In this document: positions 5,601-63,982 of the stretch, piece by piece
Layout of the letters: the number at the start of each line of letters is the position of its first letter
How positions within the stretch are numbered: position 1 is the first letter of the stretch
Source: Paracoccus aminovorans
Lineage (GTDB): Bacteria > Pseudomonadota > Alphaproteobacteria > Rhodobacterales > Rhodobacteraceae
Assembly: GCF_900005615.1 (NCBI RefSeq)
Contig: NZ_LN832559.1
Location: 1,208,837-1,272,836 of the forward strand
Direction: 5' to 3'
Length of the DNA: 64,000 nucleotides
Notes under the pieces: generated by a model
Seen by the model: only the letters and a program-made list of their open reading frames with translations
The model's database searches: none
What the model was told of the DNA's origin: nothing
Made by a program: the position numbers and the translations under genes

Positions 5601-5677
5601 GCGGTTGTAGCTCAGTTGGTTAGAGTACCGGCCTGTCACGCCGGGGGTCGCGGGTTCGAGCCCCGTCAACCGCGCCA
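5601..5677 (+). tRNA. tRNA-Asp (GTC), copy 1
   Basis: Folds as a complete cloverleaf. Acceptor GCGGTTG pairs with CAACCGC, the D-arm is normal, and the anticodon stem CCGGC/GCCGG encloses loop CTGTCAC with anticodon GTC. The T-loop is TTCGAGC and the CCA is encoded. It is 77 nt long. A second copy follows after 27 bases and differs at one T-loop base. Confidence 0.95.
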
Positions 5678-5704: not shown

Positions 5705-5781
5705 GCGGTTGTAGCTCAGTTGGTTAGAGTACCGGCCTGTCACGCCGGGGGTCGCGGGTTCGAGTCCCGTCAACCGCGCCA
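5705..5781 (+). tRNA. tRNA-Asp (GTC), copy 2
   Basis: Same cloverleaf and GTC anticodon as the copy at 5601, with an encoded CCA end. The only difference is T instead of C at the last base of the T-loop, which does not disturb pairing. It is probably co-transcribed with copy 1. Confidence 0.95.
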
Positions 5782-25691: not shown

Positions 25692-25772
25692 CTTCTTTGC
25701 TCGAAAAATACCTCGGGGGACGCCTTTCCAGCCCCGTCGAGGGGCCGGAAAGGCGGGGGGCGGAGCCCCCGC
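25692..25772 (-). repeat. Long-form 3'-end hairpin repeat downstream of hisH
   Basis: Read on the minus strand: a GC hairpin (GCGGGGG...CCCCCGC), then a 15-bp stem with a 5-base TCGAC loop (25711-25755), then GAGG-TATTT and an A/G-rich tail. It starts 10 bases after the hisH stop, in the sense orientation. It is about 85-90% identical to the copy at 63903-63982. Confidence 0.75.
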
Positions 25773-25781
25773 CCGCGCCTC

Positions 25782-26411
25782 TCAGGGGCGCCAGCGCAGG
25801 AAATTCGCGATGATGCGCAGCCCGACCGCCTGCGACTTCTCGGGATGGAACTGGGTGCCGACGATATTGTCGCGGCCCACCACCGCCGTCACCGGACCGC
25901 CATAATCGGCACGCGCCAGCAGATGGGTCGGATCGGCGACCCGGAACTGCCAGCTGTGCACGAAATAGGCGTGATCGCCGGTGGCGATGCCATCAAGCAG
26001 CGGATGCGGGCGCAGCACCTCGAGATCGTTCCAGCCCATATGCGGCACCTTCAGTCCCGGTGCGTCGATGGCGTCGATCCGGCCCCCGATCCAGCCCAGG
26101 CCGGGGGTGTCGCGGTATTCGTGGCCCATATCGGCCAGCATCTGCATGCCGACGCAGATGCCCATGAAGGGCACGGCGCGGTCCAGGACCGCCTCGCGCA
26201 GGGCCTCGACCATGCCCGGCACCGCGTCCAGCGCCGCCCGGCAGGCCGGAAAGGCGCCGTCGCCGGGCAGGACGATGCGTTCGGCGCGCGCGACCACCGC
26301 GGGGTCCGAGGTCACCACCACCTCGACTCCAGCCTCGCGCCCCATCAGCGCGAAGGCCTTTTCCGCCGAATGCAGGTTGCCGCTGTCGTAATCGACCAGC
26401 GCGACGCGCAT
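25782..26411 (-). CDS. hisH: Imidazole glycerol phosphate synthase, glutaminase subunit
   Basis: 209-residue class I glutamine amidotransferase that supplies ammonia to HisF. Nucleophile in [12 protein letters not shown] (Cys near residue 80), with His and Glu of the triad in [10 protein letters not shown] near residue 190. The ATG at 26411 overlaps the hisB stop by one base, so translation is coupled. An in-frame GTG one codon upstream is less likely. Confidence 0.95.
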
Positions 26412-26998
26412 CACAGCGCCCCCTTGGTCGAGGGCAGCACGCCGGCCATGCGCGGGTCCGGCTCGACCGCCTCGCGCAGCGCGCGGGCCACGGCCTTGAA
26501 GGCGGCCTCGGCGATGTGATGCGAATTCAGCCCGTGGATGCGGTCCACATGCAGCGTGATCCCGCCATGGGTCGCGAGCGCCTGGAAGAATTCCCGCACC
26601 AGCTCGGTGTCGAAGCGGCCGATCTGCGCCGTCGGAAAATCGACGTTCCAGACCAGGAAGGGCCGCGCCGACAGATCCAGCGCCGCCCGCACCAGCGCAT
26701 CGTCCATCGCCAGGTGGAAGGAACCATAGCGGCGGATGCCCTTCTTGTCCCCCAGCGCCTGGACCAGCGCCTTGCCCAGCGCGATGCCGGTGTCCTCGAC
26801 CGTATGGTGGTCGTCGATATGCAGGTCGCCCTGCGCCCGAACGGTCATGTCGATCAGCGAATGCCGCGACAGTTGGTCCAGCATGTGATCGAAGAAGCCG
26901 ACGCCGGTCTGATTGTCGTAACGGCCGGTGCCGTCCAGGTCGATCTCGACCTCGATCCGCGTCTCGGCCGTGTCGCGGGTGATCTTTGCGCGGCGCAT
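26411..26998 (-). CDS. hisB: Imidazoleglycerol-phosphate dehydratase
   Basis: 195 residues; monofunctional, without a phosphatase domain. Dual metal-binding signatures: [28 protein letters not shown], and [23 protein letters not shown]. The start at 26998 ([14 protein letters not shown]) follows AGGAGAGACCCC; the long upstream frame overlaps the divergent gene and is spurious. First gene of hisBH, divergent from the coiled-coil gene upstream of zapA. Confidence 0.96.
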
Positions 26999-41408: not shown

Positions 41409-41468
41409 GGCGCGGGCAGGGGAACGCTGTTCCCCTCTTGCCCCGCTTTGCGGGTCAATTCACCCCAT

Positions 41469-41536
41469 GGGGTATTTCCGAAACGGAAAAAGCCGGGGCG
41501 CGGCGGCAGCCGCTCTTTCCGTTTTCCAAATACCCC
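41469..41536. repeat. Inverted pair of 3'-end repeats between aroC and pstS
   Basis: GGGGTATTTCCGAAACGGAA at 41469-41488 (plus strand) faces an inverted copy at 41515-41536, which on the minus strand reads GGGGTATTTGGAAAACGGAA. They form a long hairpin of about 22 bp with a GC-rich 20-base loop. It is sense to aroC and lies just upstream of the pstS Pho boxes. It could act as a terminator or as insulation. Confidence 0.65.
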
Positions 41537-63902: not shown

Positions 63903-63982
63903 GCGGGGGCTCCGCCCCCCGCCTTTCAGGCCCCTCGACGGGGCTTGAAAGGCGTCCCCCGGAGTATTTGGAGAACGAAGAG
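63903..63982 (+). repeat. Long-form 3'-end hairpin repeat downstream of doxX
   Basis: GC hairpin (63903-63922), then a 15-bp stem CGCCTTTCAGGCCCC with a TCGAC loop (63920-63954), then GGAGTATTTGGAGAACGAAG. Sense to doxX. Compared with the copy at 25692-25772 (minus), the stem differs by one compensatory base-pair change. Confidence 0.75.

Follow-up and report, generated by a model that had tools for sequence, protein, structure and literature searches.

The question raised by the 64,000-nt stretch of Paracoccus aminovorans DNA analysed here, which we call the window, is whether two highly structured copies of a repeat, each about 80 bp long, are RNA elements selected at mRNA 3′ ends or belong to a repeat that acts at the level of DNA. 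The initial annotation proposed the former and set aside the latter. The two copies, at 63903-63982 on the plus strand and 25692-25772 on the minus strand, fold as it had described: in each, a GGGGGC-UCC-GCCCCC hairpin is joined by a 15-bp stem that is closed by a TCGAC loop, and the tail reads C5-NNNN-TATTT. To these our analysis adds a predicted loop-tail pseudoknot, a mirrored second C-run, a pairing between the bases ahead of the G-run and the linker in short copies elsewhere, and a third copy with a probable, decayed partner tail. The parts of the three copies are:

63903..63982, plus strand: copy 1, whole element (covariance model 91.3 bits), with a DoxX-family gene upstream
63905..63919, plus strand: copy 1 stem S1, GGGGG (63905-63909) paired with CCCCC (63915-63919)
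63910-63914, plus strand: copy 1 loop L, CTCCG
63920..63954, plus strand: copy 1 stem 2, arms 63920-63934 and 63940-63954, loop TCGAC
63956-63960, plus strand: copy 1 second C-run
63961-63964, plus strand: copy 1 L′, GGAG
C63912-G63961, plus strand: copy 1 predicted pseudoknot pair, by a pair rule taken from 208 copies
63965..63982, plus strand: copy 1 TATTT (63965-63969), then a purine-rich tail
25692..25772, minus strand: copy 2, whole element (covariance model 89.3 bits)
25756..25770, minus strand: copy 2 stem S1, with loop L, CTCCG (25765-25761)
25721..25755, minus strand: copy 2 stem 2, arms 25755-25741 and 25735-25721, loop TCGAC
25711..25719, minus strand: copy 2 second C-run (25719-25715) and L′, GAGG (25714-25711)
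C25763-G25714 and T25764-A25713, minus strand: copy 2 predicted pseudoknot pairs, by the same pair rule
25692..25710, minus strand: copy 2 TATTT (25710-25706), then tail
41419..41492, plus strand: copy 3, a divergent member, GGGGAACGCTGTTCCCC - stem 2 - CCCC ATGGGG TATTT - tail
41513..41536, minus strand: probable decayed partner of copy 3, an inverted tail CTCTTTCCGTTTTCCAAATACCCC, 50 nt from TATTT

According to a home-made gene caller, copies 1 and 2 both lie between convergent genes. The next gene call after copy 1 is located past the window end, and copy 2 lies between hisH (25782-26414, minus strand) and a convergent DUF2147 gene (end 25678, plus strand). The name hisH was assigned from the gene's own sequence (Pfam GATase), and the HisH encoded in the window shares 90% identity with its counterpart in P. 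aminovorans HPD-2 and 89% with the one in P. kondratievae. The distance from the upstream stop codon to the element is 87 nt for copy 1 and 10 nt for copy 2. Of 200 dinucleotide shuffles of each copy, 198 fold less well than copy 1 (z −3.4) and 194 less well than copy 2 (z −1.8). Copy 3 is 10 nt past the stop of the chorismate synthase gene (gene end 41408) and ahead of a PstS-like gene; the inverted tail that follows has the spacing seen in the usual doublets of this repeat, with no head beyond it, and is probably its decayed partner. When Rfam 15 was run against the window, the copies had no match at the gathering score, and a lax search of seven loci gave seven weak matches, one of which overlaps a copy (gyrA RNA, scoring 24 bits where the cut-off is 45). 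The Rfam 15 library is without any family that describes the repeat. The only gathering-score matches within the window are tRNA genes at 5601-5674 and 5705-5778.

The case for selection in the initial annotation drew on one compensatory change in stem 2, and this change is real, with the single differing pair being A-T in copy 1 (63928/63945) and C-G in copy 2 (25747/25729). One covarying pair between two copies is thin evidence; the genome, however, contains 62 matches to a covariance model of the element. The model was built from nine seed copies, after a tenth (L004) was removed because it was misaligned. A DNA similarity search of the whole window genome gave 13 matches, whereas the model gave 89 at E ≤ 1 (150 of 1423 first-look candidates were scored), some of them being stem 2 only, on the reverse strand; the 62 are the matches at E ≤ 0.01 with stricter filters. 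As a short palindromic repeat found across many intergenic regions, the element resembles a REP. In the nine seed copies, double-sided changes occur at 9 of the 15 pairs of stem 2 (reached by 2 of 500 shuffles), 98.9% of cells are paired (as many in none of 500 shuffles), and the covariation score is 0.488 (equalled by none of 500). The same model has matches in all 25 of the Paracoccus genomes searched, the window's included, with 3 to 79 in each. From the stem-2 covariation, together with the loop-tail pairing described below, we conclude that the repeat is real, strongly structured and, as far as sequence can tell, selected for pairing, and this part of the initial annotation stands.

The order of parts in the element is G-run, loop L, C-run 1, a linker or second hairpin, C-run 2, L′ (mostly 4-6 nt), RTATTT and tail, and we see a long form, a short form, and a form without stem 2. 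An earlier parser failed on 11 of the 71 matches of the window genome. The pattern used across genomes requires runs of 4-7 G or C and so excludes broken copies; the G-run and the two C-runs are equally long in 159 of 212 distinct copies (5/5/5 in 103, 6/6/6 in 46 and 4/4/4 in 10). When we searched 1.14 Mb chosen around copies with the arms left free, we obtained 101 hits with arms of 5-6 nt, compared with 3 hits in reversed sequence and 4 with an altered anchor, and the arms were C-runs in the overwhelming majority. In 74 short copies, the two bases directly ahead of the G-run (positions −2 and −1) pair with the two that follow C-run 1; 143 of 148 positions are paired, compared with 105 after shuffling, and the observed value was reached in none of 5000 shuffles.

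Loop L is complementary to the start of L′, and 208 of the 212 distinct copies were usable in a pairing test with a fixed register. Pair 1 is Watson-Crick in 194 of the 208 (permuted mean 167) and pair 2 in 122 (permuted mean 79), while among 82 distinct combinations the values are 69 for pair 1 (permuted 57.5) and 57 for pair 2 (permuted 30.3); in each case none of 5000 permutations reached the observed value, with independence being overstated in permutation tests of this kind because the copies share descent. An earlier permutation test with a free register was weaker, and for loops of at least 6 nt (19 distinct combinations) 74 of 5000 permutations reached the observed value. Pair 2 of the 7-nt loops is T-A in 43 copies, A-T in 25, C-G in 14, G-C in 10 and something else in 4 (n = 96), so that all four Watson-Crick types occur, in 92 of 96 copies. 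In loops of 4 or 5 nt, pair 1 is C-G in 89 copies and T-A in 15 (n = 110), while pair 2 is frequently T.G or G.G and its register is ambiguous, and we therefore claim only pair 1 for these loops.

From these pairings, we conclude that the tail-containing strand can fold, by prediction, as an H-type pseudoknot that has been retained through compensatory changes. In this predicted fold, S1 is formed by the G-run and C-run 1 and is two bases longer in the short form, and S2 consists of one to three Watson-Crick pairs between the hairpin loop and bases past the second C-run. The linker that would join S1 to S2 ends in C-run 2, which is as long as the G-run in most copies, and a hairpin is optionally inserted in it. 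The matching length and the position of the second C-run suggest that it may lie along stem 1 as a third strand. The predicted fold is specific to one strand, which suggests that the molecule being recognised may be a folded single strand, either ssDNA or RNA. The preQ1-I and luteoviral-type structures are H-type pseudoknots with a short, groove-bound linker that crosses stem 1, and the repeat resembles them in its stem order and its short linker crossing stem 1. Unlike them, the repeat is dispersed and has a C-run linker as long as its G-run, and we know of no ligand or gene associated with it.

A rival explanation is that the repeat is a sense-acting element of mRNA 3′ ends, whose pseudoknot and RUAUUU would end, process or protect transcripts, for example as a pseudoknot-bearing terminator or as an RNase E site behind an exonuclease barrier. 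Wobble pairs at the loop-tail positions agree with this, since over the three positions counted there are 65 T.G on the tail strand (G-U if that strand is RNA) against 22 C.A or A.C, 16 of which are at one position, pair 3 of short loops. The RTATTT also matches the AU-rich preference of RNase E reported for R. sphaeroides (PMC6238624). Stem 2 speaks against it. Copies 1 and 2 do share a G-U pair there if the tail strand is the transcript, as the initial annotation pointed out in arguing for RNA, but this argument does not generalise: in 98 distinct second stems the tail strand has 15 G-U and 12 A-C positions and is the better-folding strand in 39, and we reject a G-U strand bias in stem 2. 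Nor do the copies listed have the U-run of an intrinsic terminator, having only (A/G)TATTT after the hairpin. According to PMC7866481, no recurring motif was found at the 3′ ends affected by PNPase in R. sphaeroides, which counts, if only slightly, against an mRNA-end element. Separately, we noted that the stem-2 loops of the 98 distinct copies look strand-specific, being mostly T...C on the tail strand, which is UNCG-like as RNA, or G...A on the opposite strand.

The placement of copies relative to genes bears directly on the same question. We counted gene context for 88 copies from seven genomes (five genera) plus the window, using gene calls from a simple codon-usage caller made for this analysis rather than a validated gene finder. 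The 88 copies comprise 24 in tandem sense, 26 in tandem antisense, 34 in convergent and 2 in divergent positions, and 2 within a called gene; in the background, intergenic regions of at least 30 bp are tandem in 427 cases, divergent in 156 and convergent in 103. This preference for tandem and convergent over divergent regions (50 tandem, 34 convergent and 2 divergent, n = 88) is REP-like. Of the 58 copies that have a sense gene upstream, 41 begin their G-run no more than 25 nt past its stop codon, which agrees with the placement downstream of genes given in the initial annotation. Antisense-tandem copies behave similarly at their other end, with TATTT ending within 34 nt of the other gene's stop in 16 of 26. 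On these gene calls, then, copies lie between tandem or convergent genes near stops in either orientation and are rare in divergent regions.

The initial annotation named a lack of strand bias relative to the upstream gene as a result that would count against it. In the seven other genomes this is the result, since tandem single copies, with doublets removed, are 18 sense and 21 antisense (p = 0.75). In the window genome there is a mild sense excess. Among the 59 copies scoring at least 25 bits, 20 are tandem sense, 10 tandem antisense, 21 convergent and 8 divergent; with no bit cut, the 71 copies comprise 23 sense, 13 antisense, 23 convergent, 8 divergent, 3 in genes and 1 unplaced. The position shortly past stop codons and the excess of 20 over 10 are what an mRNA 3′-end element would give, while the 18 and 21 single copies of the seven genomes are not, and a sense-only mRNA element is rejected as the full story on these orientation counts. 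Sense copies inside seemingly co-transcribed gene pairs, in the nrdE-nrdF gap of the annotated P. ferrooxidans and in the fabD-fabG gap of the window genome, also argue against it; two other copies in P. ferrooxidans are antisense past a stop codon. A conserved link to hisH is likewise rejected. The junction carries the element at only 4 of 59 loci examined, once reversed (80 loci were returned, and 21 were excluded, mostly as other orders by their titles). In some species (L246, L250, L268 and L270) ordinary-looking terminator hairpins, as judged by eye, take its place, a replacement in line with a transcript-end role. We also considered an antisense terminator formed with an A-rich flank and rejected it, as copies of the antisense class show no A-rich sequence 5′ of the G-run.

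Some copies of the repeat are found in pairs. Among 115 copies there are 14 tail-to-tail neighbours, no same-direction neighbours and one head-to-head neighbour, which is an overlapping, spurious parse, and the TATTT-AAATA distance is 45-51 in 12 of the 14 tail-to-tail pairs. By eye, the tails of most of the 14 pairs are mutually inverted repeats while the heads differ. Pairing in the sequences compared is thus tail to tail, with a spacing that hardly varies. A partner at 43-52 nt was detected for 27 of 98 elements in the seven genomes, 4 of 60 in the window genome and none of 14 in Paracoccus chromids; elements with a detectable partner are a minority, and so single copies need another origin.

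In one relative, G137, the tail-to-tail pair is itself dispersed as a unit. This unit measures about 155 bp, its ends are sharp, and the sequences that flank it are unrelated. When 1.5 kb around one G137 doublet was used as the query, the 43 rows obtained correspond to 39 further places in G137, since four rows are opposite-strand repeats of places already counted. The matches begin at 674-684 in 37 of the 39, that is, no more than 10 nt before the unit start at 684, and they end at 840-843 in 19 (unit end 840), inside the unit in 18 and beyond it in 2. A second G137 doublet used as the query gave 47 rows. Doublets in unrelated flanks are 97.5% and 92.5% identical, with identity stopping a few nucleotides from the unit ends. 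From these alignments, we conclude that in this one genome the pair has spread as one distinct unit of that size, which is the behaviour of a DNA-level repeat and counts against an mRNA 3′-end element. The selected structure proposed in the initial annotation is supported, whereas its exclusion of a DNA-level repeat is not, given the G137 units and the orientation counts. As a side observation, the G137 doublets L322-L370 are 151-157 bp long, mostly with A at the left flank and T at the right, and are mostly heterodimers of a CTGTCTG-loop half opposite a CGCTG, CTCTG, CTTTG or CTTTCCG half.

Individual sites were compared among Paracoccus species. On four Paracoccus chromids with flanks 87-100% identical, the element is retained at all three shared sites, and at two of the three the element itself differs wholesale between species. 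In 300 kb each of P. pantotrophus, P. versutus and P. denitrificans we found no empty site, with the element present in six of six comparisons at three sites (eight further comparisons had no flank match), and 100 kb of P. ferrooxidans agrees with the site retention in the other three species. Retention of sites in four species despite sequence change is what an mRNA 3′-end element would predict. The wholesale replacement in place points to conversion, or to a functional constraint at the site, more than to simple jumping. Taking both sides together, we regard a sense-acting mRNA 3′-end element, including its terminator and RNase E variants, as unlikely, if still worth serious attention.

Placement and pairing suggest a comparison with known dispersed repeats. 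REPs, as described in the main text of PMC3733652, are short palindromic intergenic repeats with tens to hundreds of copies per genome in tandem and convergent gaps; they often form inverted dimers, including heterodimers, and CGTC REPs have no known transposase. The repeat shares with the GTAG and CGTC super-families of that text its intergenic placement, its copy numbers and its inverted dimers. Unlike REPs, it lacks the GTAG or CGTC tag, is restricted to one family, and has a predicted loop-tail pseudoknot, a mirrored second C-run, a conserved TATTT and a genome-specific tail. REPINs, according to PMC3116915, are inverted element pairs with fixed spacing and spacers capable of pairing that are dispersed as a unit and tied to RAYTs. 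An inverted doublet of fixed spacing, dispersed as one unit, is also what we find in G137; unlike those RAYT-tied elements, the G137 doublets occur in a genome without any Y1_Tnp, and most of the doublets listed are heterodimers.

Could the repeat simply be ordinary GTAG-type REPs mobilised in trans by RAYTs? Its REP-like placement and dimers would agree with this, as would the Y1_Tnp (RAYT-type) genes that 2 of the 18 element-rich genomes carry. Such genes were also seen in 6 of 31 relatives. In the other 16 of the 18 element-rich genomes, including the window genome and G137, the search gave no Y1_Tnp match, with E. coli and Caulobacter positive as controls, and G137 accordingly has no REPIN-linked RAYT gene. 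The 4 nt before the G-run in 171 copies contain no GTAG, no GGAG and one CGTC, while 12-nt anti-tail windows contain 5 CGTC, 1 GTAG, 8 TGTC and 7 CCTC. We consider such an origin highly improbable and reject mobilisation by a RAYT on the 16 of 18 genomes; no mobilising enzyme was found for the repeat. It is not classed here as a GTAG or CGTC REP, though it behaves like one, because the tag and the transposase were both looked for and not found.

The repeat is widespread within its order. A loose pattern matches 167 of the 196 genomes of the order, in 80 of 87 genera, with a maximum of 176 matches per genome (overlapping parses counted), compared with 7 hits in total for a reversed-pattern control over the same 196 genomes; the remaining 29 are without a match. 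When the pattern was tightened to require AA at one set position in the tail, it matched only 21 of 61 genomes of the genus, with no hits in controls. Class-wide, outside the family, there are matches in 3 of 237 genomes, which are unlike the element, and control hits also occur in 3. The covariance model gives a single weak match in 1 of 16 genomes of other families, and the plasmid records matched by one copy are all Paracoccus (15 of 15). Named loci that carry copies include Paracoccus, Pararhodobacter, Roseicyclus and Flavimaricola, and from these names the repeat appears to be restricted to the Rhodobacteraceae. In the main text of PMC3733652, figures and additional files aside, the words Rhodobacter, Paracoccus, Roseo and Ruegeria do not occur. 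A literature search with the motif letters gave, among the matches listed, no title on bacterial repeats, and we found no description of the repeat in the literature searched, from which subscription papers, figures and supplements were outside the scope.

High copy number (up to those 176 matches with overlapping parses), paired tails at nearly fixed spacing, and placement at gene 3′ ends in either orientation with few copies in divergent regions could also be explained by a structural element that acts as DNA and serves the chromosome, for example as a binding site for gyrase or a nucleoid protein at the ends of genes. Such a function is hard to reconcile with the 29 of 196 genomes of the order that have no pattern match, with tails that vary between genera, and with the strand-specific stem-2 loops and loop-tail covariation, which indicate a folded single strand. 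We find this explanation improbable. Orientation along the replication strand was also considered and rejected as an explanation, as the leading-strand excess of copies on the window chromosome, judged by eye from binned counts and skew, is only mild.

In its placement without regard to orientation, its dispersal in discrete units and its inverted pairs, the repeat shows the habits of REPs and REPINs as described in PMC3733652 and PMC3116915. Our preferred explanation, which we hold to be probable though well short of certain, is that the copies in the window belong to a family-wide, REP/REPIN-like repeat of the Rhodobacteraceae that is pseudoknotted and moved by an enzyme other than RAYT. The predicted fold, as ssDNA or RNA, would be the substrate for an enzyme that copies or converts the element, and the tail would be the genome-specific recognition sequence of this putative enzyme. 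The location past stop codons would then be what selection against insertions in genes and promoters has left. Where a copy is transcribed in sense, the pseudoknot could, as a side effect, act on mRNA as REPs do (decay barrier, processing, partial termination), and we regard such RNA effects as possible. More tentatively, and with less than even confidence, we propose that the repeat represents a new class of non-autonomous mobile elements in which the pseudoknot is the mobility signal, C-run 2 possibly serves as a third strand, and a putative RAYT-independent enzyme recognises the folded single strand together with the genome-specific tail.

As a RAYT-free, REPIN-like, pseudoknotted repeat, the element is more interesting than as an mRNA 3′-end element. 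It is conspicuous in most of the sampled genera of a large and well-studied bacterial family and apparently undescribed, and we did not find a covarying pseudoknot with a mirrored C-run reported for REPs in the literature searched. It makes testable how REP-like repeats spread where RAYT is absent and how pseudoknots at gene ends affect the fate of mRNA in Rhodobacteraceae, and it accounts for the "structured 3′ ends" that a reading of such genomes from sequence alone encounters. Two minor observations concern copies and tails. In eight genome groups the tails, compared by eye, are genome-specific; two or more types often occur in one genome, and the tail type tracks the base (A or G) that precedes TATTT. 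Finally, two copies (L030 and L031, at G000 C1:289803 and C2:153916) are identical, with identical near flanks, on two replicons, and this pair is a recent segmental duplication.
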